DNA of 19,453 nt from Desulfonatronospira sp. (lineage in GTDB: Bacteria; Desulfobacterota; Desulfovibrionia; Desulfovibrionales; Desulfonatronovibrionaceae), in assembly GCA_003563255.1 (NCBI GenBank), contig PWSL01000156.1, forward strand, positions 1 to 19,453. The letters run 5' to 3'. The position numbers were made by a program, and so were the translations under genes. A model generated the notes under the pieces. It did no database searches. It saw nothing but the letters and a program-made list of their open reading frames with translations, and was not told the DNA's origin. Positions 1-19,453 of this stretch are shown here, in pieces; the stretch's first letter is position 1, and each line of letters begins with the position of its first letter.

Positions 1-118
1 CCTCCGGGGACTGGCTCTTTTGCCGCCTGTTATTTTGTTCAATTGCAAGTTATCAAACGGCAAAAGTGCCTGTCCCCAATTGAGACAGGTTATAAATTTT
101 TGAAGTTTCGCTGTAGTG
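1..118 (+). repeat. Family B palindromic element, left end outside window (copy B1)
   Basis: The left arm GGGGACTGGCTC (6-17) runs into TTTTGCCGCC. The right arm is GGCAAAAG followed by GTGCCTGTCCCC (66-77), giving a long imperfect hairpin. The right terminus TTTCGCTGTAGTG ends at 118. The same arrangement recurs at 8680-8820 and, inverted, at 16582-16725, where both CACTACAGCG / CGCTGTAGTG termini are visible; here the left terminus lies before base 1. No coding capacity. I interpret it as a miniature non-autonomous mobile element. Confidence 0.75.
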
Positions 119-123
119 TTATT

Positions 124-187
124 GTATTTGTGCAGAAAAGGTATCGCGGGGACTGTCCCCGGGCGGTATCTGCCCCCTGAATGGTTA
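124..187 (+). repeat. Family C repeat with GGGGACTGTCCCC palindrome (copy C1)
   Basis: The segment contains TTGTGCAGAAAAGG, then the perfect palindrome GGGGACTGTCCCC (148-160), and ends in CCCCCTGAATGGTTAC. Almost the same string occurs at 13859-13927 with a few substitutions and a small indel. The end TGAATGGTTAC resembles the GTGAATAGTTAC end of the large element at 16413-16834, so this may be the right half of a GTAAC-ended element. Its left end is not recognisable and it abuts copy B1. Confidence 0.65.
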
Positions 188-213
188 CGTATGATCGGCT
201 GATCCAAAAATAA

Positions 214-242
214 TTGACCATTTAATTATTATGGGAGATAAT
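214..242 (+). promoter_or_regulatory. Candidate sigma-70 promoter of the riboflavin operon
   Basis: TTGACC (214-219) and GATAAT (237-242) are separated by 17 bases, close to the sigma-70 consensus. A start about 7 bases after the -10 box would fall near 249, only one or two bases before the ribE ATG at 251, so this promoter would give an essentially leaderless mRNA. The sequence also contains GGGAGA (233-238), a poor ribosome binding site at that distance. No FMN riboswitch is recognisable in the short space before ribE. Confidence 0.4.
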
Positions 243-250
243 AGCAGGTT

Positions 251-910
251 ATGTTTACAGGCCTGATTCAGGGTACAGGCACCATTACCGCCATCCAGAG
301 AAAAGGGGGGGAAACCAGGTTCACTGTCAGGCCCGGATTCACCCTTCACGATCCCCGTCTCGGCGAAAGCATTGCTGTCAACGGGGTATGTTTGACTGTT
401 GAAAGCTTCGGCAGAGGCGGTTTCCATGTCTACGTCTCGGCCCAGACAATGTCCCTGACCAACCTGGGGGATTTAATAACCGGCTCGCAAGTCAACCTGG
501 AACGGGCCCTGGCCCTGGGAGACAGGCTGGGCGGGCACCTGGTTGCCGGACATGTAGACTGCCTGGCTGGAGTTGAACACATCCAGCAGGCAGGGGAATC
601 CAAGAAATTTACCCTGGTGTACCCTGAAGAATTCAACCCTCAGGTCATCAACAAGGGTTCAGTGGCTCTGGACGGCATCAGCCTGACCATCACTGAGTGT
701 GGGGCGGGACATCTGCAGGTGAACATTATCCCGGCCACCTGGAAGGAAACAACTATAGCCCACTGGAAAAAGGGCTCCCTGGTCAACATGGAGACCGACC
801 TCATCGGTAAATACGTCCAGAATATGCTGGGCCCCTGGATGGCTGAACGATTTTCACAGCAAAACCAAAAGGGGATAGACATGGACTTTTTGAGACAGCA
901 TGGTTTTTAA
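251..910 (+). CDS. ribE: Riboflavin synthase (alpha subunit type)
   Basis: Riboflavin synthase dismutates two 6,7-dimethyl-8-ribityllumazine molecules to riboflavin and 5-amino-6-ribitylaminouracil, the last step of the pathway, in the cytosol. The 219-residue protein starts with the canonical MFTGLIQGTG and shows the two lumazine-binding repeats of the family: residues 1 to about 97 (with ESIAVNGVCLTV near 39-50) and about 98-195 (with GHVDC near 100-104 and GSVALDGISLTI near 136-147). Length is normal. The family start motif fixes the ATG at 251, although no good ribosome binding site precedes it. ribBA and ribH follow, so the product sits with the enzymes making both pathway branches. ribD is not present; it could lie upstream or elsewhere. 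The symbol ribC is used for the same enzyme in some organisms. Confidence 0.95.
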   Translation: MFTGLIQGTGTITAIQRKGGETRFTVRPGFTLHDPRLGESIAVNGVCLTVESFGRGGFHVYVSAQTMSLTNLGDLITGSQVNLERALALGDRLGGHLVAGHVDCLAGVEHIQQAGESKKFTLVYPEEFNPQVINKGSVALDGISLTITECGAGHLQVNIIPATWKETTIAHWKKGSLVNMETDLIGKYVQNMLGPWMAERFSQQNQKGIDMDFLRQHGF

Positions 911-954
911 CGATTTAATCAATCCTTCGAGATATAATAAACGCGAGGCTACAC

Positions 955-2166
955 ATGTCCATTTGCACTATTGAAGAAGCAATCGAAGATATCCGGCGGG
1001 GCAAAATGGTTATCCTGGTGGATGATGAGGACCGGGAAAACGAGGGCGACTTGACCATAGCGGCCCAGCACATCACCCCGGAGGCCATCAACTTCATGGC
1101 CAAGTACGGCCGCGGGCTCATATGTCTGGCTCTGGCCCCGGAATGGGTGGACCGACTGGGACTGCCCATGATGGCCCCTAAAAACACCTCCAGATTCGAA
1201 ACCGCTTTCACCGTATCCATAGAAGCCGCCAAAGGTGTTACCACGGGCATCTCAGCCTTTGACCGCTCAACCACAATCCTGACCGCCATTCAGGATGATG
1301 TAAAGCCCCAGGACATTGCCACTCCGGGTCATATTTTTCCTCTGCGGGCCAAGAAGGGCGGTGTGCTGGTCCGGGCTGGTCAGACCGAGGGCGGTGTGGA
1401 CCTGGCCCGTCTGGCGGGGTTGAAGTCTGCGGCCGTAATCTGCGAGATCATGCGCGACGACGGCAACATGGCCCGCATGCCGGATCTCGTTGAATTTGCA
1501 AAAAAACATGAAATTAAAATTTGTACCATAGAAGACCTTATCCGCTACCGGGCCAGGTTTGATTCCATGGTCAAACGGGTGGCCGAGGCGGACCTGCCTA
1601 CGGATTTCGGCAACTTCAAAGCCATTGCCTACGCAAACGAGGTTGACGATCATACCCATGTGGCCCTGGTAAAGGGCAGATTTAAAAAACACGAACCTAT
1701 TCTGGTGCGGGTGCACAGCCAGTGCCTTTCCGGTGACGTTTTCGGGTCCCTGCGCTGCGACTGCGGCAACCAGCTCAAGGCGGCCATGCGCATGGTGGAT
1801 CAAGCCGGCAAGGGCGTCCTTCTATACATGAGTCAGGAAGGCCGGGGCATCGGCCTGGCCAACAAGATAAGGGCTTACTCGCTGCAGGACCAGGGGCTGG
1901 ACACTGTGGAAGCCAACGAAAAACTGGGCTTTGCCCCGGACCTTCGCAGCTACGGTATCGGTGCCCAGATCCTGGTGGACCTGGGCATTACCAAGATGCG
2001 CCTCATGACCAACAACCCCAAAAAGATAGTCGGCCTGGAGGGATTCGACCTGGAGGTGGTGGAGAGGGTATCCATAGAAGTACCGGCCTGCCGGCAGAAC
2101 CAGTGCTACCTGCTCACCAAAAAAGAAAAAATGGGGCATATCCTCAGCATTTCCGGCAAGCAGTAA
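955..2166 (+). CDS. ribBA: Bifunctional 3,4-dihydroxy-2-butanone 4-phosphate synthase / GTP cyclohydrolase II
   Basis: This 403-residue protein opens both branches of riboflavin synthesis. The N-terminal half (about 1-205) converts ribulose 5-phosphate to dihydroxybutanone phosphate and carries [11 protein letters not shown] (residues 23-33) plus the HIFPLRA and [14 protein letters not shown] motifs. The C-terminal half (about 207-403) opens GTP; it has the zinc ligand set C257, C268, C270 in [18 protein letters not shown], then [11 protein letters not shown] and LMTNNPKK. Both domains retain their signature residues, so both activities are expected. A weak GAGG (944-947) precedes the ATG by 7 bases. 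The gene starts 44 bases after ribE and is followed by ribH, consistent with one operon. Confidence 0.96.
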
Positions 2167-2192
2167 ATCAGGAGCATGGGAGATACAAACAT

Positions 2193-2666
2193 ATGCTGCA
2201 CATCAAGACCATCGAAGGCAGGCTGGACGCCGGGGGGCTTAAGATAGCCCTGGTGGCCTGCAGGTTCAACGACTTCATTGTGGACAGGCTCATAGGCGGG
2301 GCAGTGGATTACCTGGTACGCCACGGAATTGACAAGGATAACCTGACTCTTTACCGGGTACCGGGGGCCTTTGAAATGCCGGTACTGGTCAAGCGTCTGA
2401 CAGGCAAAAAAGATCTGGACGGCATTGTCTGTCTGGGAGCTATCATACGCGGGGCCACTCCACATTTCGACTTTGTGGCTGCAGAATCCTCCAAGGGCAT
2501 TGCTCAGGCTTCCATTGACTCCGGCATGCCCGTGGGCTTCGGCCTTCTAACTACGGACAGCCTGGAGCAGGCCATTGAAAGGGCCGGCAGCAAAGCCGGC
2601 AACAAGGGTGTGGAGGCTGCCGCAGCAGTATTGGAACTTATCCGGGTCATGGAGCAGATCGACTAA
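2193..2666 (+). CDS. ribH: 6,7-dimethyl-8-ribityllumazine synthase
   Basis: Lumazine synthase condenses 5-amino-6-ribitylaminouracil with dihydroxybutanone phosphate, supplying the substrate of ribE; family members assemble into pentamers or 60-mers. I chose the ATG at 2193 (157 residues, the usual length, with GGGAG about 10 bases upstream) over an in-frame start at 2103 that would lie inside ribBA. Motifs visible: RFNDFIVD near the N-terminus, [22 protein letters not shown] with the catalytic-type His in [24 protein letters not shown] and GNKG. It lies 26 bases after ribBA and 15 before nusB, a ribH-nusB order common in proteobacteria. Confidence 0.95.
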
Positions 2667-2681
2667 AAATCCCTTATTCAG

Positions 2682-3155
2682 ATGTCAAAAAAATCCACCG
2701 GGGCCTGGCGGAAAAGTTCCAGGCATGCACAAAGGGTGTTCGCCTTTCAGGTTCTTTACTCCCTGAACTTTGAGCATTCGGAGCAACAGCTCCAAACCAC
2801 ATTTGAACATTTTATCCAGGAGCAGCAACCCGGCACGGAAAAAGAAAACTCCTATGCCGGACAGCTGCTCAAAGGCATCCGGGACAACCTGGACAAGCTT
2901 GACTCTATCATAAGCAGGTATTCCCAGAACTGGAAAGTCAAGCGTATCGCCATGGTGGAGATGACCATAATGCGCCTGGCGGTTTACGAAATGCTGTACC
3001 GGGAGGATGTCCCGGTCAAGGTGGCCATCAACGAAGCCATCGAGTTGGCCAAGACCTTTGGCGACAACAATTCACGTAACTTTGTAAACGGCATTCTGGA
3101 CGCCGTTGCCAGGGATATACTAAATGGTAAACTTGGGCCTGGCCTGGAATCCTGA
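2682..3155 (+). CDS. nusB: Transcription antitermination factor NusB
   Basis: NusB binds the boxA RNA of rRNA leaders together with S10 (NusE) to keep RNA polymerase processive. The 157-residue all-helical protein shows the family pattern: a basic N-terminus (KSSRHAQRVFAFQVLYSL), a central block IAMVEMTIMRLAVYEML, and the C-terminal signature VPVKVAINEAIELAKTFGDN followed by FVNGILDAVARD. Length is slightly above the usual 140-150. No convincing ribosome binding site precedes the ATG, and the gene may be coupled to ribH, which ends 15 bases upstream. Its 3' end overlaps the next reading frame by 32 bases. Confidence 0.93.
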   Translation: MSKKSTGAWRKSSRHAQRVFAFQVLYSLNFEHSEQQLQTTFEHFIQEQQPGTEKENSYAGQLLKGIRDNLDKLDSIISRYSQNWKVKRIAMVEMTIMRLAVYEMLYREDVPVKVAINEAIELAKTFGDNNSRNFVNGILDAVARDILNGKLGPGLES

Positions 3156-3651
3156 GTCCTGCCCCCTGTATTTCTCCAGGCTGTTTTTTGTTTCTTCGGC
3201 GGACCAGGAAAAGCTGCCCGTTCTGAATTCCTGGCCCCAGGAAGAACACAGGATCTGGGAACTGATCTTTCCCATAAAAGAAAACCAGGACCAGGCTGAC
3301 TGGGTCCTGGAACTGTCCAGGTGTCTCAAGGGGCTGTCGCAATCCAGGTGGTGCATAAGCACCCCTGACCTGGTGCAGGTCTTCAACCTCCCCCTGGACA
3401 AAGCCCTGGCCAGATGGGGGGAACTCTTCTGGCCCAACTACCGGTTGGACTCGGTTTTTATTTTTACAACCGGGGATGATCCAGCCCTGGTCAGGGATAT
3501 TCTAAAGATGTGGCACAGCAGGCAAACCAATATCTGCATGCGCAGTCACTACGATTTTACGGTTCCTGACGGGCAGTCCCCATTGCAGGATTCTCCGAAA
3601 AAATCAAAATGGACATTCTGGAGCAGGCTTGGATTCAAAGTTTCTGTCTAG
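3124..3651 (+). CDS. Uncharacterised protein between nusB and leuS
   Basis: I do not recognise this 175-residue protein. It has no signal peptide, no clear membrane segment and no obvious motif; it is rich in Trp, Leu and Pro, and the C-terminus is basic (SPKKSKWTFWSRLGFKVSV). The start overlaps the end of nusB by 32 bases and is preceded by AGGG (3111-3114) 9 bases before the ATG, which favours genuine, coupled translation. The frame stays open for 528 bases with codon use like its neighbours, and no long competing frame covers it. The TAG stop at 3649-3651 forms the last bases of an 8-bp duplication flanking repeat A1. Function cannot be inferred; a translation-related role from context alone would be a guess. 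Confidence 0.7.
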   Translation: MVNLGLAWNPESCPLYFSRLFFVSSADQEKLPVLNSWPQEEHRIWELIFPIKENQDQADWVLELSRCLKGLSQSRWCISTPDLVQVFNLPLDKALARWGELFWPNYRLDSVFIFTTGDDPALVRDILKMWHSRQTNICMRSHYDFTVPDGQSPLQDSPKKSKWTFWSRLGFKVSV

Positions 3652-3708
3652 GTATCTGTTTAGCGCATTTTAGGAAAGCAGGGGACAGGCAAAGCGCTGA
3701 ACAGATAC
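3652..3708 (-). repeat. Family A mini-element, deletion derivative with 8-bp flanking duplication (copy A1)
   Basis: A 57-bp element with ends GTATCTGTTTAGCGC and GCGCTGAACAGATAC. The flanks CTGTCTAG (3644-3651) and CTGTCCAG (3709-3716) match at 7 of 8 positions, indicating an insertion duplication. Read on the minus strand, the interior is only the right arm of the full element (CCTGTCCCCTGCTTTCC); the left arm and the whole hairpin are missing. The junction lies at GCCTGT, which occurs twice in a full-length copy such as 9436-9573, so deletion between those short direct repeats explains it. Confidence 0.8.
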
Positions 3709-3773
3709 CTGTCCAGTGTGTTTTATTGCGGCAACTGTAACCGGCCAATAAAGTTTCAAGGAAGGCTTTTTTT

Positions 3774-6275
3774 ATGCAGGACAGCAGGTACCATCCGGAG
3801 CAGGTAGAGAAAAAATGGCAGCAGATATGGGAGGAGCGAAAAACTTTTGAGGTAACCCACCAGGATACTTCCAGGCCCAGGTACTACGTCCTGGAGATGT
3901 TTCCCTACCCCTCTGGCCGCATTCACATGGGCCACGTACGCAACTACTCCATAGGTGACGTGGTGGCCAGAATGAAAATGATGCAGGGATTCAACGTCCT
4001 GCACCCCATGGGCTGGGACGCCTTCGGACTGCCCGCGGAAAACGCCGCCATCAAAAACAACACTCATCCCGCCCAATGGACCTATCAAAATATCGGCTAT
4101 ATGCGCCAGGAACTCAAAAGGCTCGGCTACTCCTACGACTGGAGCCGGGAACTGGCCACCTGCCATCCAGGTTACTACCAGTGGGAGCAGCTCTTTTTTC
4201 TCAAATTTTATGAAAAGGGTCTGGTCTACCGCAAAAAGGCCCCGGTCAACTGGTGCCCCACCTGCGTCACTGTGCTGGCCAACGAACAGGTGGAAGACGG
4301 CCTTTGCTGGCGCTGCGACTCCTCGGTGGAAAACCGGGAACTCTCTCAATGGTTTTTACGCATAACCGACTATGCTGAAGAACTTCTGCAGGACCTGGAC
4401 AAGCTTACAGGGGGGTGGCCGGATCGGGTCCTGAGCATGCAGAAGAACTGGATAGGCAAAAGTACCGGGATGGAGATAGACTTCCCGGTGCAGGGCCTGG
4501 ATGCAAAGATAACCGTTTTCACCACCAGGCACGACACCCTGTTTGGTGCCACATTCATGAGCCTGGCTCCGGAACACGAAATGGTCCCCAGCCTCATCCG
4601 GGACAACCCCGGTCAGGACAGAATTCAGCAGTTCATTGCCAGGACAACCGCCCAGGAACACCGGGAACGTACAGACGATGATGCCGAAAAAGAAGGCATC
4701 TTTACCGGAAGTTTCTGCATAAACCCTGCAACCGGGGAAAAGATGCCCATTTACCTGGCCAATTTCGTCCTGGCGGAATATGGCACCGGTGCGGTCATGG
4801 CTGTCCCGGCCCATGACCAGCGGGATCTGGAGTTCGCCCGCAAGTACCACCTGCCGGTGCGTGTAGTGGTCAGGCCTTCAGACCAGTCCTCAGATTTTCA
4901 TATCCTTGATCAGGCCTATTCAGAGCCCGGGGTGGCCATCAATTCCGGACAGTTCGATCACAAGCCCACCCACCAGGTGCAGGAGGAGATCGCCGATTAC
5001 CTGGAGAGCCTGCAGGCGGGGCGAAGAGCGGTAAACTATCGCCTGCGGGACTGGAATATCTCCAGGCAGCGCTTCTGGGGGGCACCCATTCCGGTAATTT
5101 ACTGCGAGAAATGCGGCATTGTTCCTGTCCCGGCCGACAATCTGCCGGTTCTTCTGCCTCAGGATGCTGAAATGCCCAGCGACGGCCGCTCCCCCCTGCC
5201 CCACATGGAAGCCTTTGTGCAGATTGACTGCCCTGAGTGCGGGGGAAAAGCCAGACGTGAAACCGACACCATGGACACCTTTGTGGAATCCTCCTGGTAT
5301 TTTGCGCGCTTCACAACACCCCGCAAACCAGACAGTCCGTTTGAGCCGGATGCGGTCAAGTACTGGCTCCCGGTGGATCAATACATTGGCGGCATTGAAC
5401 ACGCAATCCTGCACCTTCTGTACGCCCGCTTCTTTGTCAAGGCTCTGCGCGATCTGGGGTACTGGGACCTGGACGAGCCCTTTTCAAACCTTTTGACGCA
5501 GGGCATGGTCCTCAGGGATGGAGCCAAGATGTCCAAGTCCAAAGGCAACGTGGTGGACCCCGACGAAATGATCCAGCGCTTCGGGGCGGACACTGTCCGC
5601 CTTTACTGCCTGTTTGCATCCCCCCCGGAAAAGGACCTGGAATGGAGCGATTCGGCCATTGAGGGTTCTTACAGATTTTTAAACCGCCTATGGAGGACTA
5701 TACACCAGCTCTCCGGGGTGTTGTCCCCTGTCGGCCCCTGCATGCCCATGGATCCCGGGGAATTGAGTTCTGAAGAAAAAAAACTGCGCGCCGCGGAGCA
5801 CGAGGCCATGCGCAGGGCCACCAGAGATATGCTGGACAGGTTTCAATTCAATACTGCCATTGCAGCCTGCATGGAACTCTTAAACACCATCGGGCAGCAC
5901 CGGGAACATCTTGAAAAGAGTTCCAACGGTCCCCGGGTGCTCTCCTCCGCCCTCTCCACTCTGCTCACAGTGCTGGCTCCCATCACCCCGCATATCAGCG
6001 AGGAACTCTGGGCTCACATGGGGCACAGCCACAGCCTGTCCGAAAGCAGGTGGCCGGACTACGATCCCCGGGCCCTGGTGCGCGATGAGGTTACCGTGGT
6101 TGTCCAGGTAAACGGTAAACTGCGATCCAGCATAAGCGTTCCCGTGGACATGGATCAGGAGGAACTCAAATCCCTGTGCCTGGAAGAAGATAAGGTCAAA
6201 AAGCATATTGAGGGCAAAAAAGTGGTCAAGATAATCGTGGTGCCGGGCAAGCTGGTCAACATAGTGGTGCGCTGA
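3774..6275 (+). CDS. leuS: Leucyl-tRNA synthetase
   Basis: Class Ia aminoacyl-tRNA synthetase charging tRNA-Leu in the cytosol. At 833 residues it has the normal bacterial length. The ATP-binding HIGH motif is HMGH at residues 51-54 and KMSKS is at 585-589 (GAKMSKSKGN). Between them lie a zinc-type knuckle (WCPTC ... CWRC), the CP1 editing domain with the threonine-rich TTRHDTLFGATF segment and AVPAHDQRD, and a second Cys cluster (CEKCG ... CPECG) before the TMDTFVESSWYF signature. The C-terminal anticodon-binding region ends with VQVNGKLR and a short basic tail. AAGGAAGG (3758-3765) sits 8 bases before the ATG. lptE starts 2 bases after the stop. Confidence 0.98.
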   Translation: MQDSRYHPEQVEKKWQQIWEERKTFEVTHQDTSRPRYYVLEMFPYPSGRIHMGHVRNYSIGDVVARMKMMQGFNVLHPMGWDAFGLPAENAAIKNNTHPAQWTYQNIGYMRQELKRLGYSYDWSRELATCHPGYYQWEQLFFLKFYEKGLVYRKKAPVNWCPTCVTVLANEQVEDGLCWRCDSSVENRELSQWFLRITDYAEELLQDLDKLTGGWPDRVLSMQKNWIGKSTGMEIDFPVQGLDAKITVFTTRHDTLFGATFMSLAPEHEMVPSLIRDNPGQDRIQQFIARTTAQEHRERTDDDAEKEGIFTGSFCINPATGEKMPIYLANFVLAEYGTGAVMAVPAHDQRDLEFARKYHLPVRVVVRPSDQSSDFHILDQAYSEPGVAINSGQFDHKPTHQVQEEIADYLESLQAGRRAVNYRLRDWNISRQRFWGAPIPVIYCEKCGIVPVPADNLPVLLPQDAEMPSDGRSPLPHMEAFVQIDCPECGGKARRETDTMDTFVESSWYFARFTTPRKPDSPFEPDAVKYWLPVDQYIGGIEHAILHLLYARFFVKALRDLGYWDLDEPFSNLLTQGMVLRDGAKMSKSKGNVVDPDEMIQRFGADTVRLYCLFASPPEKDLEWSDSAIEGSYRFLNRLWRTIHQLSGVLSPVGPCMPMDPGELSSEEKKLRAAEHEAMRRATRDMLDRFQFNTAIAACMELLNTIGQHREHLEKSSNGPRVLSSALSTLLTVLAPITPHISEELWAHMGHSHSLSESRWPDYDPRALVRDEVTVVVQVNGKLRSSISVPVDMDQEELKSLCLEEDKVKKHIEGKKVVKIIVVPGKLVNIVVR

Positions 6276-6277
6276 AT

Positions 6278-6799: not shown

Positions 6800-6812
6800 G
6801 GCGGATCAAGCC

Positions 6813-7784: not shown

Positions 7785-7815
7785 CAACCTGACCGGCTTT
7801 CAGGGACAAAAGCAT

Positions 7816-8496: not shown

Positions 8497-8586
8497 CGCG
8501 CATATCATTATCACTTTATAACAGCTCAAGCCATTTCAGTATGCCATACAAACTGTTACATATCACTACAGTGACATTTTGTGATA

Positions 8587-8884
8587 GTATCTGTTTAGCG
8601 TTTTGCATGTGGCATGGGGACTGGCTCTTCCGGGACCCACTTGTCCCAAAAAATGAGATATTTTTAGCACAAAATAATGCTACAGCGAAACTTATGATTG
8701 GCCTCCGGGGACTGGCTCTTTTGCCGCCGAGATTTTTGAGCAGTTGAGGGTTTTGCATCGGCAAAAGTGCCTGTCCCCAATTGAGATACCATAGTGTATT
8801 TTATAAGTTTCGCTGTAGTGATAATGCTCAAGTGGGTCCCGGAGTGCCTGTCCCCTGCTTTCCTTAAAAGCGCTAAACAGATAC
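8587..8884 (+). repeat. Family A element with perfect 8-bp target duplication, itself interrupted (copy A2)
   Basis: The ends are GTATCTGTTTAGCG and CGCTAAACAGATAC. TTGTGATA flanks the element exactly on both sides (8579-8586 and 8885-8892), a clear target duplication. The arms GGGGACTGGCTC (8616-8627) and GTGCCTGTCCCC (8844-8855) enclose a TTCCGGGACCC / GGGTCCCGGA inner stem, nearly identical to the copy at 19333. Its loop is split by the B element at 8680-8820; without that the element would be about 151 bp. Confidence 0.88.
8680..8820 (+). repeat. Inner family B element with ATAATG duplication (copy B2)
   Basis: The ends are CTACAGCGAAACTTATG and ATAAGTTTCGCTGTAGTG. Arms GGGGACTGGCTC (8707-8718) and GTGCCTGTCCCC (8767-8778) enclose a TTTTGCCGCC / CGGCAAAA stem. 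ATAATG precedes (8674-8679) and follows (8821-8826) it. Removing 8680-8826 restores AGCACAAAATAATGCTCAAG, which matches the uninterrupted A copy near 19412-19431 at all but one base. If the terminus is CA-CTACAG as in other copies, the duplication would be ATAA and the first two element bases are changed here. Confidence 0.85.
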
Positions 8885-9089
8885 TTGTGATAATTTTTGC
8901 CTCGGCCACCGGGGAGAGGCACCCGGCACTTATTTTCCTAAGGAAGACTTACGGATTATTATAATAAGTGCGGGGAACCTGTCCCCTTCGAGTTCAAATT
9001 AAGTGTCGCTGTAGTGATAGTCTTGCCGGAGATAGTTAAACCTCAGGCAAGCTTATGTACAACGCCAACAAACCCACAGGAGAAGCTTT

Positions 9090-9359: not shown

Positions 9360-9435
9360 CCCGTTACCTGCTTCACGCCCCGAAGTAGTTGTATCGGCAT
9401 GAAAACCTGCCCTGAGAGCACCTGTACTGTGCGTC

Positions 9436-9573
9436 TTATCTGTTTAGCGCTTTGCCTGTAGCCTGGGGACTGGCTCTCCCCGCACTGATTTTTAGCTGAT
9501 GTGAAAATCATTACTAAATAATAAGTTCGTGGGTGCCTGTCCCCTGCTTTCCTTAAAAGCGCTGAACAGATAC
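9436..9573 (+). repeat. Family A element with 8-bp target duplication (copy A3)
   Basis: A 138-bp element with ends TTATCTGTTTAGCGC (first base changed from G) and GCGCTGAACAGATAC. TGTGCGTC lies exactly on both sides (9428-9435 and 9574-9581). Arms GGGGACTGGCTC (9465-9476) and GTGCCTGTCCCC (9533-9544) enclose a decayed CCCCGCACTGATTTTT / AATAAGTTCGTGGG stem and an AGCTGATGTGAAAATCATTA loop that closely resembles the one at 19268-19287. It occupies the middle of the 364-base gap between acyP and lon; 9360-9427 shows nothing recognisable. Confidence 0.88.
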
Positions 9574-9625
9574 TGTGCGTCCAACAAGACCTTAATGACT
9601 ATTGCCGGACACAACTTAAAATAGC

Positions 9626-9668: not shown

Positions 9669-9723
9669 GCGTCCAAAAACCGGATTCATTCCGGCATATC
9701 CATTTTTCAGGAGAAAATCAGCC

Positions 9724-12141: not shown

Positions 12142-12183
12142 TCGCCTGATGATCCAGGAGCTCAAATCTTCAGATTGACTACA

Positions 12184-12220
12184 CCGGAGGGAGACCCTCT
12201 TGCCCCCCTCCGGTTTCATT
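12184..12220 (+). terminator. Terminator of lon, possibly bidirectional
   Basis: CCGGAGGG (12184-12191) pairs perfectly with CCCTCCGG (12206-12213) and is followed by TTTCATTATTT. It lies 43 bases after the lon stop and about 30 bases from the end of the convergent HD-domain gene, so the stem may serve both. The T-rich tract is clear only on the plus strand. Confidence 0.8.
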
Positions 12221-12245
12221 ATTTCCAGGCAACTCTGCCCGGCCT

Positions 12246-13502: not shown

Positions 13503-13594
13503 AATCGTCCACCTCCTCTCCTGCAATGCCTGATCCTGTCCACACCCGCCAGGCCCTGGTTACACGAAATTATTAAACCTGAATCCGTGAAAAA

Positions 13595-13794
13595 CAGGTT
13601 CCGGAATTTGTCAAAAAGGCCGCAAAGACTCACTCCAAGGCAGACTAAATCAAAATCCCGGTCTTGCCTGATCAAATATACTGCATGGCATTCAAAAATT
13701 AATATAAATTAAATCAGATGGTTAAAGGATTTTGATTAAGTCTGCCTAAGTCGCTCAGACAGTTTGCGGCCATTTTGTCAAACCCCGGAACCTG
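13595..13794. repeat. 200-bp imperfect palindrome (copy D)
   Basis: The left arm (13595-13660) begins CAGGTTCCGG and contains GGCCGCAAAGACTCACTCC and GGCAGACTAAATCAAAATCC. The right arm (13727-13794) is its imperfect reverse complement, ending CCGGAACCTG. An AT-rich spacer of about 66 bases separates them. The arms match the inner arms of the element at 16413-16834 over their length (shared ACTCACTCCAAGG and TAAATCAAAA blocks), so the two are one family. The GTAAC-type outer ends are not visible here. It sits upstream of the HD gene and forms the first part of the 480-base gap 13503-13982; 13503-13594 shows nothing else recognisable. Confidence 0.75.
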
Positions 13795-13797
13795 GAA

Positions 13798-13927
13798 GGG
13801 GGACTGTCCCCGCTAAGTACTATCTATGAAGGTTCACACAACTTAGCGTTTTTCATATTTAATTTGTGCAGGAAAGGTGTCGCGGGGACTGTCCCCGGGC
13901 CGGTTCCGGCACCCCCTGAATGGTTAC
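13798..13927 (+). repeat. Family C repeat with two GGGGACTGTCCCC palindromes (copy C2)
   Basis: Palindromes GGGGACTGTCCCC occur at 13799-13811 and 13884-13896. The portion from 13859 to 13927 repeats 124-187: TTGTGCAGGAAAGG, the palindrome, then CCCCCTGAATGGTTAC. Between the two palindromes lies CGCTAAGT (13811-13818) paired with ACTTAGCG (13841-13848) and followed by five T. That resembles a plus-strand terminator, but no plus-strand gene precedes it. The segment directly follows palindrome D and may be part of the same composite. Confidence 0.6.
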
Positions 13928-13935
13928 AACTACAG

Positions 13936-13975
13936 GTATCTGTTTAGCTTTGCATGTGGTGCGGGGACCGGCTCT
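13936..13975 (+). repeat. Truncated family A left end (copy A4)
   Basis: GTATCTGTTTAGC, TTTGCATGTGG and GGGGACCGGCTCTTC (from 13963) match the left arm of family A; the right arm is absent. It breaks off about 8 bases before the stop codon of the minus-strand EamA gene and begins exactly 8 bases after the GTTAC end of copy C2. Confidence 0.7.
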
Positions 13976-13982
13976 TCATTCA

Positions 13983-14921: not shown

Positions 14922-14924
14922 GGG

Positions 14925-15614
14925 CTAGTGCTGACCTGCTTCCAGGTAGGCGTTTATCCGGTTTTCAATTTTCTTGAAAATCCAGAGTATTCCGTAGACC
15001 AGGACCAGATAGATGGCTGCGGCCGCCAGGAAAAGCTCATAAAAGGCAAAGCTCCGGGCGGATATTTCTCTGGCCACCCCGGTAATGTCCATGACCGTGA
15101 TGATGGACACCAGGGAGGAAGCCTGCAACAGAAAAATGACTTCGTTGGTGTAGGCAGGCCAGGCGATGCGCAGGGCTTTCGGTATGATAATACGGCGGTA
15201 GAGTAAAAGACCGGACATGCCGCAGGCCCGGGCCGCTTCCACTTCACCCCGGGGCACCCCCTGAATCCCGCCCCGGAATATCTCGGCCGAGTAGGCTGCT
15301 GTATTCAGGGTAAGGGCCAGGACAGCACAGAACCAGGGGTTCTTGAAAAAAAACCACAGGCCCACAGAATCCAGAAAGCCATGGAACTGTCCGCTCCCGT
15401 AGTAGATGAGAAAAATCTGCACCAGAAGAGGAGTGCCGCGAAAATAAAAGGTAAAGGCATACACCGGCATCCATAGGCTGCGCAACCTGGACACCCGCAT
15501 GACAGACAGTGGAATGGCCAGCAAAAAACCCAGCAGCACGCTTAGAAAAGTGATCTGCAGGGTGACCACCGCACCGTTGAAAAGTCTGGGCAGACTGTCA
15601 ATAACAATGTCCAT
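14925..15614 (-). CDS. Polar amino acid ABC transporter permease (HisM/ArtM type)
   Basis: One of two inner-membrane subunits forming the translocation channel of a polar/basic amino acid importer. The 229-residue protein has the family layout: a periplasmic N-terminus, hydrophobic segments near residues 13-35, 52-73 and 95-112, and the EAA loop EVEAARACGMS ... RRIIIPKALRIAWPA that docks on the ATPase. NTAAYSAEIFRGGIQGVPRG just before the loop is typical of HisM/GlnP-type permeases. The start lies 7 bases beyond the partner permease gene, with AGG a few bases upstream. Substrate assignment rests on the HisP-like ATPase of the same cluster. Confidence 0.93.
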   Translation of the reverse strand: MDIVIDSLPRLFNGAVVTLQITFLSVLLGFLLAIPLSVMRVSRLRSLWMPVYAFTFYFRGTPLLVQIFLIYYGSGQFHGFLDSVGLWFFFKNPWFCAVLALTLNTAAYSAEIFRGGIQGVPRGEVEAARACGMSGLLLYRRIIIPKALRIAWPAYTNEVIFLLQASSLVSIITVMDITGVAREISARSFAFYELFLAAAAIYLVLVYGILWIFKKIENRINAYLEAGQH

Positions 15615-15621
15615 ATCCGCC

Positions 15622-16317
15622 TCAGTCCATTATAATGCCGCGGCTGGCCCGTTTTTCAGCCCATTGCTGCACCAGGTTGGAGCCGATGGTTATAAGCAGA
15701 TATATAAGCGAGGCCGCGAAAAAAAAGGTGAAAGGCTCCCGGGTGGCCCGGGCGGCTATGTCGGCATTGCGCATAAGTTCCGGCAGCTGGATAACCGAGA
15801 CAAGGGCAGTGGCCTTAATCAGAACCATCCAGACATTTCCCAGCCCCGGCAGTGCATAGCGCATCATCTGGGGCAGAGTCACCCGCCTGAATGTCAGCGC
15901 CCTGCTCATGCCGCAGGCCCTGGCGGCCTCAATCTGCCCCTTGGGCACTGCCAGGTAGGCTCCCCGGAAAACCTCGGTGGAAAAAGCCCCGTAAATAAAT
16001 CCTATGGTGGCTGTTCCAGCCACAAAGGGATCCAGGGAGATAAAGACGGGAGCCCCGAACATGGCTGAGATATCCTGAATCAGAGTCGGGGTACCGTAAT
16101 ACACCAGCAGGATGAGAATCAGCTCAGGGATTCCCCGGATGACCGTAGTATAGGTGTTGGCCAGAAAACGCAACAGGGCCGAGTTTGAAAACTTGCAGAG
16201 CACCCCCAGAAGTCCCAGCCCTATGGCCAGTATCATGGCGGAAATCCCGACATAAAGGGTCAGCTTGGCCCCCTGGATTAGAAGCCATCCGTAACCGTGC
16301 AGTTCAAAAAAGGGCAT
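15622..16317 (-). CDS. Polar amino acid ABC transporter permease (HisQ/ArtQ type)
   Basis: Partner permease of 231 residues. Hydrophobic segments lie near residues 20-40, 60-78, 98-118 and 200-218. TTVIRGIPELILILLVYYG and GAFSTEVFRGAYLAVPKGQ are family signatures, and the EAA loop is IEAARACGMSRALTFRRVTLPQMM. It is 26-30 percent alike by eye to the second permease, as expected for a heterodimer. The ribosome binding site before the ATG at 16317 is poor. It is separated from the binding-protein gene of the same system by 622 bases of nested repeats, which may uncouple or reduce its expression relative to that gene. Confidence 0.93.
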   Translation of the reverse strand: MPFFELHGYGWLLIQGAKLTLYVGISAMILAIGLGLLGVLCKFSNSALLRFLANTYTTVIRGIPELILILLVYYGTPTLIQDISAMFGAPVFISLDPFVAGTATIGFIYGAFSTEVFRGAYLAVPKGQIEAARACGMSRALTFRRVTLPQMMRYALPGLGNVWMVLIKATALVSVIQLPELMRNADIAARATREPFTFFFAASLIYLLITIGSNLVQQWAEKRASRGIIMD

Positions 16318-16412
16318 GGGAGTTTGATCCTGAGTATCAGATTAGGGCTTTGCATGTAGCATGGGGACTGGCTCTCCCCGCACTTATTTTTCCAAGAAAA
16401 CCTGGACCATTT

Positions 16413-16834
16413 GTAACTATTCACCATCTGATAAAATTGATCAATCTAAGCGCACCGCTGATATCCAGGGTCCGGGGGCTTTGCAAACCGGGCGTAAACT
16501 GTCTAATCGACGCGGAGTCACGCCTGTGGCGTGATTAATCAAAACCGTAAAACACTGAACCTGATTCAAAGCATTCTATAGCACTACAGCGAAACTTATA
16601 AAATACAGTATGGTATCTCAATGGGGGACAGGCACTTTTGCCGGTTGCTAATTTGTAAATGCTTCAAAAATTCGGCGGCAAAAGAGCCAGTCCCCGGAGG
16701 TCAATAAATAAGTTTCGCTGTAGTGATAGAAATATTCTGATTATTAAACTCGTGTGTAGGTTTTGATTTACGCTTCCTTGGAGTGAGTTTTTACGTCCTG
16801 TTTGCAAAGTCCCCGGACCCTGGTGAATAGTTAC
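16413..16834. repeat. GTAAC-ended palindromic element with 8-bp duplication, IS66-like ends (copy E)
   Basis: Ends GTAACTATTCACC (16413-16425) and GGTGAATAGTTAC (16822-16834) are perfect inverted repeats. GACCATTT stands directly outside both (16405-16412 and 16835-16842), an exact target duplication. Inner arms CCAGGGTCCGGGGGCTTTGC (16465-16484) and GCAAAGTCCCCGGACCCTGG (16804-16823) continue the palindrome; the left arm has an extra block of about 39 bases. Five-prime GTAA termini with 8-bp duplications are characteristic of the IS66 family, so an IS66-derived miniature element is likely. No transposase frame is inside. Element B3 splits its centre; without it the length would be about 274 bp. 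Confidence 0.85.
16582..16725 (-). repeat. Innermost family B element (copy B3)
   Basis: The most complete B copy, 144 bp, inverted relative to B1 and B2. Ends are CACTACAGCGAAACTTATAA and ATAAGTTTCGCTGTAGTG, nearly perfect inverted repeats of 18 bases. Arms GGGGACAGGCAC (16624-16635) and GAGCCAGTCCCC (16684-16695) enclose a TTTTGCCGG / CGGCGGCAAAA stem. ATAG flanks both sides (16578-16581 and 16726-16729), a probable 4-bp target duplication. Confidence 0.82.
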
Positions 16835-16910
16835 GACCATTTTAAAAATAAGTGCGGGGGTGCCAGTCCCCTGCTTTCCCATAGGGAGCGGCCCTCCCCG
16901 CACTGATTAT

Positions 16911-16929
16911 TGATGAAACAAATTCATCA
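16911..16929 (-). other. Small stem-loop after the binding-protein gene
   Basis: TGATGAA (16911-16917) pairs perfectly with TTCATCA (16923-16929) around a 5-base loop, 11 bases beyond the stop of the minus-strand binding-protein gene. No U-run follows, so it is not a standard terminator; it could be a minor RNA 3'-end structure or chance. Confidence 0.3.
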
Positions 16930-16939
16930 TGTGCAGGCA

Positions 16940-17722
16940 TTACTCATCGCCGTAAACGTCAAAATCAAAGTATCTGTCATTAATTTCCTGGTAGGTTCCG
17001 TCGGCACGGATATCTGCAATGGCCTGATTGAAGGCCTGGCGCAGTTCATCCTCTCCCTTGCGCAATGCTATGCCGATGCCTTCCCCGAACCACTGTTCAT
17101 CGGTATAGCTTGGACCGACAAACTCGTAATCCTGCCCTGCCTCTGAATCCAGAAAGCCTGTCTGCAGTACAACAGCATCTGCAAAAAGAAGGTCCACCCT
17201 TCCGGCCACCATGTCCAGGTTGGCTTCTTCCTGGGTGGCATAGGACCTGATATTCAAAACATTATCGAAGTTGTCGTTTATGAAATTTGCGCTCACAGTG
17301 GCCCTCTGGACCCCCACGGACAAACCTTCCAGTGACTCATCTGAAATTTCAATATCCCTGTCCTTGTGTTTCACAAACCTGGCCGGTGTCTGATAATACT
17401 TTTCAGTGAAATCCACCCTTCTTTTACGCTCTTCGGTAATGCTCATGGAAGCTATAATGGCATCGTAGTCTCTGGCCAGCAGGGCCGGGATTATGCCGTC
17501 CCAGCTCTGGGTAACGAATTCGCATTCAAAATTGGCAGCGTCACACAGGGCTTTGGCGATATCAATGTCAAACCCTTTGAGGTTGCCTTGCTGGTCTATG
17601 TAGTTAAACGGGGGGTAGGCACCCTCTGTACCGATACGCACCTTGTCCTGGGCCAGGGCACTGCCCGCCAGAAGCATCAACCCGAACACCGCCAGAACCA
17701 GAATGTTAAGAATCCTTTTCAT
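16940..17722 (-). CDS. Periplasmic amino acid-binding protein (family 3, HisJ/ArgT-like)
   Basis: The ligand-capturing subunit of the ABC importer. The 260-residue precursor has a signal peptide: basic MKR, a hydrophobic core (ILVLAVFGLMLLAG) and SALA before Gln25, a good signal peptidase I site. The mature part follows the family-3 pattern: GTEGAYPPFNYIDQQGNLKGFDIDIAKALC, DYDAIIASMSITEERKRRVDFTEKYY with the conserved Ser-x-Ser/Arg ligand region, and DLLFADAVVL. Overall resemblance is to the lysine/arginine/ornithine and histidine binding proteins, so a basic amino acid ligand is likely but not proved. GGAGGA stands just before the ATG, the strongest ribosome binding site of the operon, in keeping with the excess of binding protein usual in these systems. 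Confidence 0.94.
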   Translation of the reverse strand: MKRILNILVLAVFGLMLLAGSALAQDKVRIGTEGAYPPFNYIDQQGNLKGFDIDIAKALCDAANFECEFVTQSWDGIIPALLARDYDAIIASMSITEERKRRVDFTEKYYQTPARFVKHKDRDIEISDESLEGLSVGVQRATVSANFINDNFDNVLNIRSYATQEEANLDMVAGRVDLLFADAVVLQTGFLDSEAGQDYEFVGPSYTDEQWFGEGIGIALRKGEDELRQAFNQAIADIRADGTYQEINDRYFDFDVYGDE

Positions 17723-17975
17723 GTTTCCTCCTGTTTGTGTTTTAATATTTTTAGGCGGACACTCAAGACATTACATCATAGTCCACGGCTGAACCTTAAG
17801 GACTTACTTGTCATATCCTGTCCAGAATACAAGGCCTTCGCTGAGAAGCATGGCAGGTAATCCTTGCATAAGACAGGGCCTCAGCACTTGGCAGTGGGGC
17901 GGAACCGCGCTTATTGTTCTAAACCCCGACTGGACAGAGATGACTCTTTCATCTGGGTTACGGGCAAGGCCCGCC
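17723..17975 (-). other. Intergenic region between ATPase and binding-protein genes
   Basis: This 253-base space has no copy of the repeat families that fill the other long gaps. A small hairpin CGGGC-AAG-GCCCG (17961-17973) lies just after the ATPase stop, without a U-run. The binding-protein ribosome binding site is at the other end. A promoter of its own is plausible given the spacing, but I find no well-spaced -35/-10 pair. No small gene is convincing. Confidence 0.5.
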
Positions 17976-18773
17976 TCAGAAAAACCTGGCAAGAAACTTA
18001 CGGCACCGCTCCGAATGTGGATTAGTAAAGACCTGGCCCGGGGGGCCCTGTTCTTCTATCACCCCGGAGTCGAGGAATATAACCTGGCTGGAGACATCTC
18101 TGGCAAAAGCCATTTCATGGGTGGCCAGAACCATTGTTCGGCCTTCCCTGGCCAGATCCTGCAGCACCCGCAAAACCTCTCCCACCAGTTCCGGATCCAG
18201 GGCTGAAGTAGGCTCGTCGAACAAAAGGGCCTTGGGTTCCATGGCCAGTGCCCGGGCTATGGCCGCCCGCTGCTGCTGTCCCCCTGAAAGCTGGGCCGGG
18301 TAGTAATGGGAACGATCTGCAATGCCCACTTTTTCAAGGTAAGACATGCCCCTCTCCCGGGCCTCTTTTCTGGGAACCTTTAATACATGCACCGGGGCTT
18401 CCGTGACATTGTCCAAGACGCTCATGTGGGTCCAGAGGTTAAAGTGCTGAAACACCATGCCAAGCTTGGTGCGGATACGATCAACCTGTCTGTGGTCCTC
18501 TGGAATGTTCTGGCCACGCCTGTTTAACCGCATGCGGATCTTTTCTCCGCCGACAAATATATCTCCGGATGTAGGTATCTCAAGGAGGTTGATGCAGCGC
18601 AAAAGGGTACTCTTGCCGGATCCGCTGGAACCGATCATGGATATGACGTCCCCTTCATGGGCGGTCAGGGAGACGCCTTTCAGCACGTGCAGGGAGCCGA
18701 AACTCTTGTGCAGATTTCTTACGCCCAGGGCCTCCCTGGCACTATTTAGGTCTGGGTAGTTTGCCACTTCCAT
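17976..18773 (-). CDS. Polar amino acid ABC transporter ATP-binding protein (HisP type)
   Basis: The cytosolic ATPase that drives the importer. With the ATG at 18773 it has 265 residues; an in-frame TTG at 18800 would add 9 and neither start has a clear ribosome binding site. All nucleotide-binding motifs are intact: Walker A GSSGSGKST (48-56), Q-loop Gln in MVFQHFNLW (109), signature LSGGQQQR (162-169), Walker B LLFDEP (183-188) and H-loop His219 in ATHEM. Segments such as VFQHFNLWTHMSVLDNVTEA and FDEPTSALDPELVGEVLR closely resemble enteric HisP as I remember it, which is the best hint that the system carries histidine or other basic amino acids. It is the first gene of the minus-strand transporter cluster. 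Confidence 0.94.
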   Translation of the reverse strand: MEVANYPDLNSAREALGVRNLHKSFGSLHVLKGVSLTAHEGDVISMIGSSGSGKSTLLRCINLLEIPTSGDIFVGGEKIRMRLNRRGQNIPEDHRQVDRIRTKLGMVFQHFNLWTHMSVLDNVTEAPVHVLKVPRKEARERGMSYLEKVGIADRSHYYPAQLSGGQQQRAAIARALAMEPKALLFDEPTSALDPELVGEVLRVLQDLAREGRTMVLATHEMAFARDVSSQVIFLDSGVIEEQGPPGQVFTNPHSERCRKFLARFF

Positions 18774-18954
18774 CCGGACTAGAATATATTGAGGAATCAA
18801 CCCTGTAAAGAAACTTATTCATGCCTCAAAGGGTACCGGGCATTTCGAAGCCCCGGCTGTATGCCCACATCCCCTCCTAACCGCAGGCACGGGGCTTACG
18901 AGCCCTGAGCAGGCATTGAGCCGCTTGCTGCAAATAATCAGGCTTAAATGGCAT
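18774..18954. other. Upstream region of the transporter operon, no recognised element
   Basis: This stretch should contain the promoter and leader of the minus-strand operon. I see GC-rich short complementary segments (GGGCATTTCGAAGCCCC, GCACGGGGCTTACGAGCCC) but no clear -35/-10 pair, riboswitch or operator. A short minus-strand reading frame (18877-19074) crosses into the neighbouring repeat and resembles nothing I know. Confidence 0.35.
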
Positions 18955-19128
18955 GTCTTTGTTCAGCACTTTACGTGTGGTAGGTTTGCCTGCCGGGAGG
19001 CATACAGCCCTGAAGGAGGACCAGCTCTCCCAGCACCATATTTTAAATAAATACAGCTGCCTTGCCGTCATCAAAATAAGTGCAGGGGCGTCTGTACTCT
19101 GCTTTTATTCACAGCCCTGAACAGATAC
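18955..19128 (+). repeat. Decayed family A element (copy A6)
   Basis: The left end GTCTTTGTTCAGCACTTTAC lines up with GTATCTGTTTAGCGCTTTGC of intact copies, and the right end is CCTGAACAGATAC (19116-19128). Between them are degenerate arms (GGAGGACCAGCTCTCCCAGC on the left, AAAATAAGTGCAGGGGCG and GTCTGTACTCTGC on the right). Many substitutions and no visible flanking duplication suggest an old insertion. Confidence 0.55.
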
Positions 19129-19208
19129 TATTTTTATGTAATGCCATATACCGGTGTCAAGCTAAACTTGCCACCTTCTTCAATAAATTATCAGCCATAA
19201 TTTATAAG

Positions 19209-19332
19209 CACTACAGCGAAACTTATTTATTGACCTCCGGGGACTGGCTCTCCCCGCACTTATTTTTAGCTGATGTGAAGATCATTACTGAAAAATAAGT
19301 GCGGGGTGCCTGTCCCCAATTTTGACAGGTTG
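19209..19332 (+). repeat. Family B element with the CCCCGCAC stem, right end cut by an A element (copy B5)
   Basis: The left end CACTACAGCGAAACTTATTT and the following TATTGACCTCC are identical to the reverse complement of the right end of B3 (42 bases through GGGGACTGGCTC). The inner stem, however, is CCCCGCACTTATTTTT / AAAAATAAGTGCGGGG, otherwise seen in family A. The right arm GTGCCTGTCCCC (19306-19317) continues with AATTTTGACAGGTTGG and is then interrupted by the family A terminus at 19333. Confidence 0.72.
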
Positions 19333-19453
19333 GGTATCTGTTTAGCGCTTTGCATGTAGCACGGGGACTGGCTCTTCCGGGACCCGCTTGTCCCAAAAAA
19401 TGAGTCGATTTGAGCACAAAATGATGCTCAAGTGGGTCCCGGAGTGCCTGTCC
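19333..19453 (+). repeat. Family A element running off the window (copy A7)
   Basis: GTATCTGTTTAGCGC, TTTGCATGTAGC, arm GGGGACTGGCTC (19363-19374), inner stem TTCCGGGACCC / GGGTCCCGGA and the start of the right arm GTGCCTGTCC. It is the uninterrupted counterpart of copy A2 and shows what that locus looked like before its B insertion. The right terminus and any duplication lie beyond the window. Confidence 0.8.

Follow-up and report, generated by a model that had tools for sequence, protein, structure and literature searches.

The window, i.e. the whole stretch of 19,453 nucleotides analysed here (1..19453), carries MITE-like elements of several families, two of which share a hairpin. The termini of A (GTATCTGTTTAGCGC..) show no sequence relationship to those of B (CACTACAGCGAAACTT..), and elements of both families contain the arms GGGGACTGGCTC and GTGCCTGTCCCC. 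With up to two mismatches, the first arm matches the window 21 times against 2.8 expected and the second 27 times against 3.0, numbers equalled in none of 200 shuffles. Between the arms lies one of three inner stems, distributed as an earlier note on this DNA had described: s1 (CCCCGCACTTATT-type) in A3, A5 and B5 and, in decayed form, in B4; s2 (TTCCGGGACCC) in A2 and A7; and s3 (TTTTGCCGCC) in B1, B2 and B3.

Except for B3 and B4, which are found on the minus strand, all elements are on the plus strand. At the left edge, B1 (1..118), a B-type MITE truncated by the contig end, has arms at 6-17 and 66-77, an s3 stem of the form TTTTGCCG..CGGCAAAA and its right terminus at 101-118. It is followed by the right part of a D-type MITE (148..188), with the palindrome GGGGACTGTCCCC at 148-160 and the terminus CCCCCTGAATGGTTAC at 173-188. 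A1 (3652..3708) is a 57-bp A element whose hairpin has collapsed, with GGGGACAGGC joined to AAAGCGCTGAACAGATAC; its flanks, CTGTCTAG and CTGTCCAG, agree at seven of eight positions. A2 (8587..8884; arms 8616-8627 and 8844-8855) is bounded by the exact 8-bp duplication TTGTGATA and harbors in its s2 loop the element B2 (8678..8820; arms 8707-8718 and 8767-8778), which has two mismatches in its left terminus and the duplication ATAA. The b-type element B4 (8911..9016) has a decayed stem of s1/s4 type, decayed arms at 8911-8922 and 8975-8986 and a terminus at 8999-9016; a second terminus was not found. A3 (9436..9573; arms 9465-9476 and 9533-9544) shows the exact 8-bp duplication TGTGCGTC. Another D element is present in part (13799..13927; palindromes 13799-13811 and 13884-13896, terminus 13912-13927), followed by A4 (13936..13977), the left end of an A element only, with the arm GGGGACCGGCTC at 13963-13974. 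A5 (16334..16871; arms 16363-16374 and 16860-16871), for which no right terminus was found, is interrupted in its loop by E (16413..16834), an element with the ends GTAACTATTCACC and GGTGAATAGTTAC and the exact 8-bp duplication GACCATTT at 16405-16412 and 16835-16842. E in turn contains B3 (16582..16725; arms 16684-16695 and 16624-16635), flanked by an exact 4-bp duplication that reads CTAT on the strand of the element. Towards the right edge lie the decayed A6 (18955..19128; termini with four and three mismatches), B5 (19209..19331, end approximate; arms 19239-19250 and 19306-19317; right terminus not found) and A7 (19334..19453; left arm 19363-19374), which is truncated by the contig end.

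Genome-wide, the exact left arm occurs 534 times, and its reversed sequence, used as a control, does not occur at all. We collected 254 arm pairs from 1,143,329 of the 3,522,783 bases (1.14 Mb of 3.52 Mb); since these stretches were partly picked for listed arms, the arm density in them is not the genome average. The two 12-nt arms form an imperfect palindrome of six pairs, a T.T mismatch, three pairs, a second T.T and a final pair, and arm sequence and double mismatch are mostly conserved among the copies of this genome (180/219 and 188/219). Arms and inner part together span about 70-95 nt. A high copy number of such an imperfect hairpin is a property by which REP systems are recognized. The folds of two window copies are very stable (z -7.5 and -6.9), and this stability, together with the conserved arms and mismatches, might suggest that the arms are kept for a host function such as termination, mRNA stabilisation or binding of a nucleoid protein, which would favor unrelated MITEs that carry them. 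We consider this unlikely: the distribution is patchy, with more than five arms in just one of 148 genomes of the same phylum, the window's own; the window has no Rfam match at the gathering threshold; and hairpin-collapsed A elements exist, one of which (L285) has an exact duplication.

Both termini are present in 54 A and 54 B/b elements among the 254 arm pairs, where b denotes a variant of B. Exact 8-bp target duplications flank 23 of 52 A elements, against 0.43 with the right flanks shuffled, and they occur with either stem (s1, 11/23; s2, 8/19). B/b elements instead have exact 4-bp duplications (33/53 against 5.0 expected), again irrespective of whether they carry s1 (14/20) or s3 (16/24), and 32 of the 33 duplicated words have the form nTAn. 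Since A copies show duplications whether their stem is s1 or s2, and B/b copies whether it is s1 or s3, the MITEs appear to be the movers, which supports the packaging of the hairpin in MITE-like ends that the earlier note had suspected. A and B are different transposons. That both are decayed forms of one MITE family, with the hairpin inherited by common descent, would explain the shared arms and s1 stem, and yet we give it scarcely any credence in view of the unrelated termini, the 8-bp as opposed to 4-bp nTAn duplications and the finding that, in other phyla, these arms lie between different termini. It also seems very improbable that the combinations of termini and stems are assembly or binning artefacts. 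The draft is fragmented (532 contigs), its repeat load is high, and several contigs, including the window, end in these elements, but exact duplications flank A-s1, A-s2, B-s1 and B-s3 copies within contigs, and elements of the A and B families are found in other assemblies (L100, L104, L106, L120, L124 and L142).

The A ends begin with GTATC or, in a variant, GTAAC. The D family, in which 13 of 38 pairs show exact 8-bp duplications, likewise starts with GTATC/GTAAC. For IS66-type MITEs, 8-bp repeats and GTAAGCG ends are described in the accessible part of one report (PMC11946415). In being short and having inverted termini and target duplications, the elements resemble prokaryotic MITEs as far as the available portions of the literature go (reviewed in PMC10969869), with A and D starting with GTATC/GTAAC and leaving 8 bp; they differ in their nested hairpin, in arms common to unrelated families and in that no IS with the same ends was found. 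The one IS66-type element encountered has other ends after GTAAC, and 1.14 Mb of the 3.52-Mb genome yielded no autonomous element sharing the ends of A or B. Three long end pairs in the same 1.14 Mb enclose open reading frames that by eye look like host genes.

How stems and termini combine was evaluated in copies with matching outer halves and matching inner halves, using loose motif classes; 131 of the 254 pairs fall into this concordant set of A, B or b with s1 to s3. The s1 stem occurs in 33 A, 25 B and 8 b copies, s2 exclusively in A (27/27) and s3 exclusively in B or b (38/38), with unassigned outer halves left out. The association of stem and terminus is therefore strong (Cramer V 0.53, 131 copies), yet not the perfect association, broken by B5 alone, that the earlier note had set against its modular reading. 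The note had regarded B5, a B end with an A-type stem, as exceptional; among concordant copies, s1 is in fact the more frequent stem of B (25 of 42) and also occurs in b (8 of 29), so that we reject B5 as a local accident. If the left half alone is considered, further exceptions appear (s2 with B in two cases and with b in one, s3 with A in three). Exchange is nonetheless not free, given that s2 and s3 each keep almost entirely to a single terminus group.

Several observations bear on how this exchange came about. An A element and a B element located on separate contigs share an inner segment of 57 nt at 100% identity; 34 of 1829 A-B pairs reach at least 90%, and at 80% the s1 inner segments form a cluster of 31 A, 19 B and 8 b copies. 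Relative to the termini, the arms are in standard orientation in 159 of 204 pairs, with 5 flip calls, two of them doubtful by reading, and 40 unassigned. Within the stems, flipped loops occur in three s1 loop types (2/44, 5/17 and 1/23) and in s2 (1/34); one s3 loop type has none (0/28). B elements are nested in A elements in two cases, one in the window (8678-8820, in the s2 loop) and one at L190 (6788-6930, in the A terminus). Finally, 11 copies were labelled as hybrids among 166 with both outer halves assigned, about five of which we judged clear by reading. Among the hybrids, L035 (1258-1421) has A ends around half a B or b element and an exact 8-bp duplication; L244 and L258 are built alike, with duplications agreeing at 7/8 positions. 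The identical 57-nt segment, the flipped loops, the nested insertions and the hybrids favor recombination. Given the near-fixed arm orientation and the nested insertions, it is probably by arm-to-arm recombination that inner parts are transferred, and this accounts for stem exchange better than movement by a RAYT transposase. The products of stem swapping are observed; the recombination step itself we infer from them. Among 204 pairs with up to two mismatches, four have neither outer half assigned; on inspection by eye, A or B ends in decayed form are visible in three of these but not in the fourth (L087, 365-441).

The alternative, namely that a Y1/RAYT transposase still moves the hairpin in this genome and that it entered MITEs many times, strikes us as doubtful. 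The genome does have four Y1_Tnp matches, and in Geomonas the flanks of such genes are REP-like; GGGGACAGTCTC lies within about 100 bp upstream of one of these genes (L003), and a second (L004) has one right arm nearby and one left arm about 1 kb away. Moreover, 71 of 83 A copies carry GTGG (65) or GTAG (6) 3 nt outside the left arm, as would befit a REP tag; in the left halves of B (0/71) and b (0/41) this tag is absent. However, for none of the four matches were exact arms seen at both flanks, one being a fragment and contig ends cutting one flank of two; the hairpin orientation is nearly constant in A, B and b; and the proteins are distant from L201, an arm-flanked transposase of Geomonas (best 98 bits).

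In Geomonas paludis, the search for RAYT genes flanked by the same hairpin, which the earlier note had proposed, was successful: a compact hairpin lies on both sides of two of five Y1 genes, one of which encodes a protein scoring 84.2 bits against the NCBI cut-off of 80 for REP-associated tyrosine transposases. A comparison of 27 transposases shows Geomonas L201 and Desulfoscipio L219, both surrounded by GGGGAC-type arms, to be each other's closest match (55% identity). Outside Geomonas, the RAYT link is thin. Across seven arm-bearing genomes, 10-nt arms accompany 3 of 30 Y1 loci, and seven short stretches around Y1 matches in seven further genomes contain no 10-nt arm. A motif scan, which detects only 20 of 30 known loci, found no true Y1 gene in 105 loci centred on arms (760 kb): reading the protein exposed its sole match, L122, as a false positive. 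A stricter scan gave no matches. Of 17 genomes that carry arms, 10, excluding the window's own, have a transposase similar to L201 (at least 140 bits), as does 1 of 147 other genomes of the same phylum, a contrast confounded by phylum. No such transposase is present in the arm-rich genomes G002 (171 arms) and G014 (153 arms) or in that of the window, and G141 encodes one but lacks exact arms. The mere presence of Y1_Tnp was rejected as a predictor of arms, as 101 of 148 same-phylum genomes have it and one has more than five arms.

The arms are not restricted to this lineage. Exact arm pairs occur in at least 83 stretches of named genomes, a lower bound from a species mix that is not a sample, and outer and inner stems vary by lineage, with other stems around and between the same arms in Planctomycetes, Geomonas, Firmicutes and others. 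Among the 148 same-phylum genomes, the other four of the window's own order have no arms. As this search required exact arms, the T.T mismatches are conserved in its matches by construction; among further pairs in the retrieved loci, read on both strands and leaving out six loci with A or B elements, 15 have the T.T/T.T form and 11 other combinations, counts that depend on the query through the choice of loci. The same tally contains 102 more counts, which are complementary readings and include the retrieved matches. The recurrence of the arms with other stems in other phyla, and beside RAYT genes in Geomonas paludis, supports the earlier view of the hairpin as a unit in its own right. Of its two interpretations, packaging in MITE ends and recombination within arms both fit our results; present-day RAYT movement in the window's genome is the part that found no support.

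Taken together, we favor, as the more probable reading, a REP/TIRtron-like hairpin that lodged in unrelated DDE-type MITEs, was spread by them and had its inner part swapped via the arms. The hairpin would be a REP-like unit, its arms belonging to the class of palindromes found beside certain tyrosine transposases (the inverted repeats of 'TIRtrons'). In the lineage of this genome, it would have settled midway between the ends of unrelated MITEs of the DDE type: the IS66-like A, with 8-bp duplications and GTATC/GTAAC ends, and B together with b, with 4-bp nTAn duplications; D (8-bp) has a related palindrome. First entry into each family was probably by insertion through a Y1 transposase. The MITEs, rather than the hairpin, would be what transposes now, with B elements seen inserted into A elements. 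Hundreds of near-identical arms would then serve as homology handles, at which recombination, gene conversion or template switching may replace inner stem and loop or create hybrids. More tentatively, and as a possibility we rate below this reading, hairpins of the form GGGGACTGGC..GCCTGTCCCC could be a multi-phylum passenger, first spread by HUH transposases (RAYT/TIRYT; for the superfamily, see PMC6006769) and then come to rest, more than once, in loop regions of palindromic MITEs of the DDE type, outliving its own transposase while its core was swapped by arm recombination: a passenger riding on other passengers.

For TIRtrons, the consulted part of Di Nocera et al. (2013; PMC3733652) describes inverted repeats with a GGGGWSAS motif that flank tyrosine transposase (TIRYT) genes and make up families of repeats. 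Taken as its complement (GGGGACAG), the right arm matches this motif, and the left arm, GGGGACTG, does not; our repeats further differ in that they are hairpins, lie within DDE-type MITEs flanked by target duplications and have no linked transposase seen in the window's genome. From what could be seen of the REP, REPIN and RAYT literature, the likeness lies in high-copy imperfect hairpins that flank RAYT genes in Geomonas paludis and contain unpaired stem bases, such as E. coli TnpAREP is reported to need (PMC8266576, in part), and in the GTGG or GTAG of most A copies, GTGG being given as a variant REP tag in the seen part of PMC3733652. The differences are the untagged B and b, the length of arms plus inner part and the lack of a flanked RAYT seen in the genome. 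The same partly seen source describes composites of a degenerate REP and unrelated stem-loops, present hundreds of times in Pseudomonas putida and P. fluorescens; those composites flank a transposase gene, whereas the present hairpin lies inside DDE MITEs and its inner stem is exchanged between families. We found no published report of this hairpin unit in a search that lacked most subscription literature; a Thiomargarita paper, seen in part, matched a short arm string through a PCR primer. If our reading holds, a single recognized hairpin crosses between HUH single-strand and DDE double-strand transposition chemistries. This would offer REP-like sequences a route to persist without a transposase, bearing on their long-term survival, and would make this genome, with its hundreds of copies, one where module exchange between MITE families is measurable.

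A plasmid collection queried with one A and one B element gave no match. Hairpins also occur in viral contigs, in 18 stretches with a short and in 4 with a long gap, which served in the transposase motif scan only. Lastly, five concordant copies in the genome have the outer ends GGTTAACCC.. and ..GCAAGCAGGG (type C), which may represent a further MITE.

The hairpin, two 12-nt arms around an inner stem and loop, is in our reading a REP/TIRtron-like unit that sits packaged inside members of at least two unrelated MITE families, which have spread it and between which it has been reshuffled. In the window, one contig (19,453 bases) of a draft genome that comprises 3.52 Mb in 532 contigs, the A and B elements occupy the intergenic regions; the genes, judged by eye from ORF translations, presumably include flavin-synthesis genes, leucyl-tRNA synthetase, lon and an amino-acid ABC transporter. 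The arms are real, with 21 and 27 window matches against 2.8 and 3.0 expected, and the genome has 534 copies of the exact left arm (reversed control: 0). Arm pairing, with at most three mismatches per arm and four in total, covered 141 stretches (1,143,329 bases, partly picked for known arms) and gave 254 pairs, 204 of them with at most two mismatches.

In 151 of the 254 pairs, both outer halves (the sequence outside the arms) agree, as do both inner halves. Among these concordant copies, A elements carry stem s1 33 times, s2 27 times and s5 twice; B elements carry s1 25 times and s3 17 times; the B-variant b carries s1 eight times and s3 21 times; the further outer context C carries s4 five times; and 13 copies have an unassigned outer type. 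The association of stem and terminus is strong yet far from complete (Cramer V 0.53 for the 131 A, B and b copies with s1–s3). The earlier note had claimed a hairpin common to A and B with swappable inner stems; its stem assignments were borne out on re-reading the copies, and the association is not a perfect one with the window copy B5 as sole exception, since s1 is common to A, B and b. By left halves alone, s2 further occurs with B (two copies) and b (one), and s3 with A (three); three s2 copies (L064, L079 and L179) have CCCTACAACG-like left ends resembling B. C elements, such as that at L058 4547–4625, lie in the outer context GGTTAACCCTTGCAGGACGC.. / ..GCAAGCAGGG, and seven of the eight copies labelled C on the left have the s4 stem.

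Target duplications were counted for pairs in which both termini were found and neither flank ran off the contig, with expectations from shuffled right flanks. Exact 8-bp duplications surround 23 of 52 A elements (0.43 expected) and exact 4-bp duplications 33 of 53 B/b elements (5.0 expected), 32 of the 33 words fitting nTAn. Given these lengths and established MITE biology, A and B are therefore probably different DDE-type MITEs. Both families have moved two stem types, as duplications are found around A copies with s1 (11/23 exact) and s2 (8/19) and around B/b copies with s1 (14/20) and s3 (16/24). In a third family, D (ends GTAACCATTCAGGGGG), 13 of 38 pairs are bordered by exact 8-bp duplications, against 0.41 expected, and 20 of the 38 carry a related palindrome, GGGGACWGTCCC. 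Since IS66 elements are described as having 8-bp repeats and starting with GTAAGCG (PMC11946415), A and D look IS66-like. The only IS66-type element found in this genome (L288, contig C430, 242–3009; a transposase gene and then a DruA-domain gene, ends GTAACTTCTCAATAGTTCTGGG) was inserted into an A-variant hairpin, within its loop, and is flanked by the exact 8-bp duplication CAAAAACA; its ends are not A or B ends. We name no driving transposase for A or B, because the three long A/B end pairs in the sequence read enclose what appear by eye to be host genes.

How inner parts came to be shared was addressed by comparing the inner segments of 119 concordant elements with 30-nt flanks. Identities of at least 90% occur in 34 of 1829 A–B, 9 of 1711 A–b and 4 of 899 B–b pairs, and one 57-nt segment is letter-for-letter equal in an A (L183, 4897) and a B element (L182, 8215). 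Fresh insertions should place a hairpin in both orientations and at variable positions; in 159 of 204 pairs the left arm keeps to one side relative to the termini (five flip calls, 40 not assignable), which favours exchange between arms, in register, over fresh insertion. Of the earlier proposal that copies recombine within the arms, the shared A–B segments are observed, and arm recombination is their probable mechanism. Intermediates of exchange are present: a search for nested insertions yielded B2 (window 8678–8820, duplication ATAA), lodged in the s2 loop of A2, and, at L190 6788–6930, a b element within an A terminus (duplication TTAG). The latter kind of nesting could give rise to hybrids in which A ends enclose half a B or b element, as seen at L035, L244 and L258. 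Outer halves agree in 155 of the 166 copies in which both were assigned; 11 are labelled hybrid, about five of them clear on reading (L035, L038 1826, L041 5700, L089 and L094) and the remainder doubtful labels. Loops are also flipped inside their stems (2/44, 5/17 and 1/23 in three s1 loop types, 1/34 in s2, 0/28 in one s3 type), an outcome that inverted-repeat recombination would produce.

Nesting is threefold at window 16334–16871, where E, an element with its own ends, interrupts the A5 loop (exact 8-bp duplication GACCATTT) and itself holds B3. A 59-nt inverted repeat (13597–13655 and 16761–16819, 78%) links part of E to an unexplained intergenic stretch of the window. Head-to-tail hairpin arrays with A-type spacers occur at L038 1826–2164 (three units, period ~123 bp) and L061 8341–8730 (four units, ~103 bp), possibly made by recombination between copies.

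The origin of the hairpin may lie with Y1 transposases. In Geomonas paludis, two of five Y1_Tnp genes have compact hairpins, GGGGACTGGCTC-CGCCAG-GTGCCTGTCCCC or close variants, on both sides, those around L207 in inverted pairs. Of these two genes, L201 passes the 80-bit NCBI cut-off for REP-associated tyrosine transposases (84.2 bits), and L207 falls narrowly under it (78.6 bits). In Desulfoscipio, gene L219 lies between GGGGACAGGC repeats; in a comparison of 27 proteins, its product and that of L201 were each other's best match (55%). Counting against a RAYT link, a 10-nt arm is absent from 27 of 30 Y1 loci in seven arm-bearing genomes and from seven short Y1 stretches of other genomes. None of the four Y1_Tnp hits of the genome studied here was seen flanked on both sides (one is a fragment, two lie at contig ends), and all four are distant from L201 (best 98 bits). 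Most A copies (71 of 83) carry a REP-like tag, usually GTGG and rarely GTAG, 3 nt beyond the left arm; none of 71 B and 41 b copies does. The earlier picture of a REP-like unit in MITE-like ends holds for the packaging, target duplications are shown as well, and a Y1 origin is suggested by the Geomonas genes.

Parallels are known. The TIRtrons described by Di Nocera et al. (2013; PMC3733652) are tyrosine transposase genes with inverted repeats on either side that share GGGGWSAS, and the same article reports Pseudomonas composites in which REP units are joined to unrelated stem-loops. The E. coli TnpAREP requires unpaired bases in the stem (PMC8266576); here, T.T pairs are retained in 180 and 188 of 219 copies. 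We found no description of the hairpin unit itself in the open-licence literature searched.

Beyond this genome, the distribution of the arms is patchy. Exact arm pairs 44–74 nt apart occur in at least 83 stretches of named genomes; we read 88 matches, and those listed include Planctomycetes, Geomonas, Desulfoscipio, Diplocloster, an Armatimonadetes and two Acidobacteria-type MAGs. Both the outer and the inner stems vary between these lineages. Fifteen arm-pair-bearing genomes have 10 to 370 exact left arms (reversed control: 0 to 4). Among 148 genomes of the same phylum, none but the present one has more than five exact arm copies, and the four from its order have none. Two planctomycete elements (L102 and L143) have GTAACCG ends and duplications of 8 or 9 bp, so this genome is not alone in having the hairpin packaged in a GTAAC-type element. 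Another planctomycete locus (L122 4743–4886) holds a tandem of two hairpins, alike in left flank and arms and different in inner stem, an instance of stem swapping in a different phylum. A-variant and B elements of the families described here also occur in PWYO01, named as Actinomycetota MAG T3Sed10_139 (L100 and L104), reflecting either misbinned contigs or transfer.
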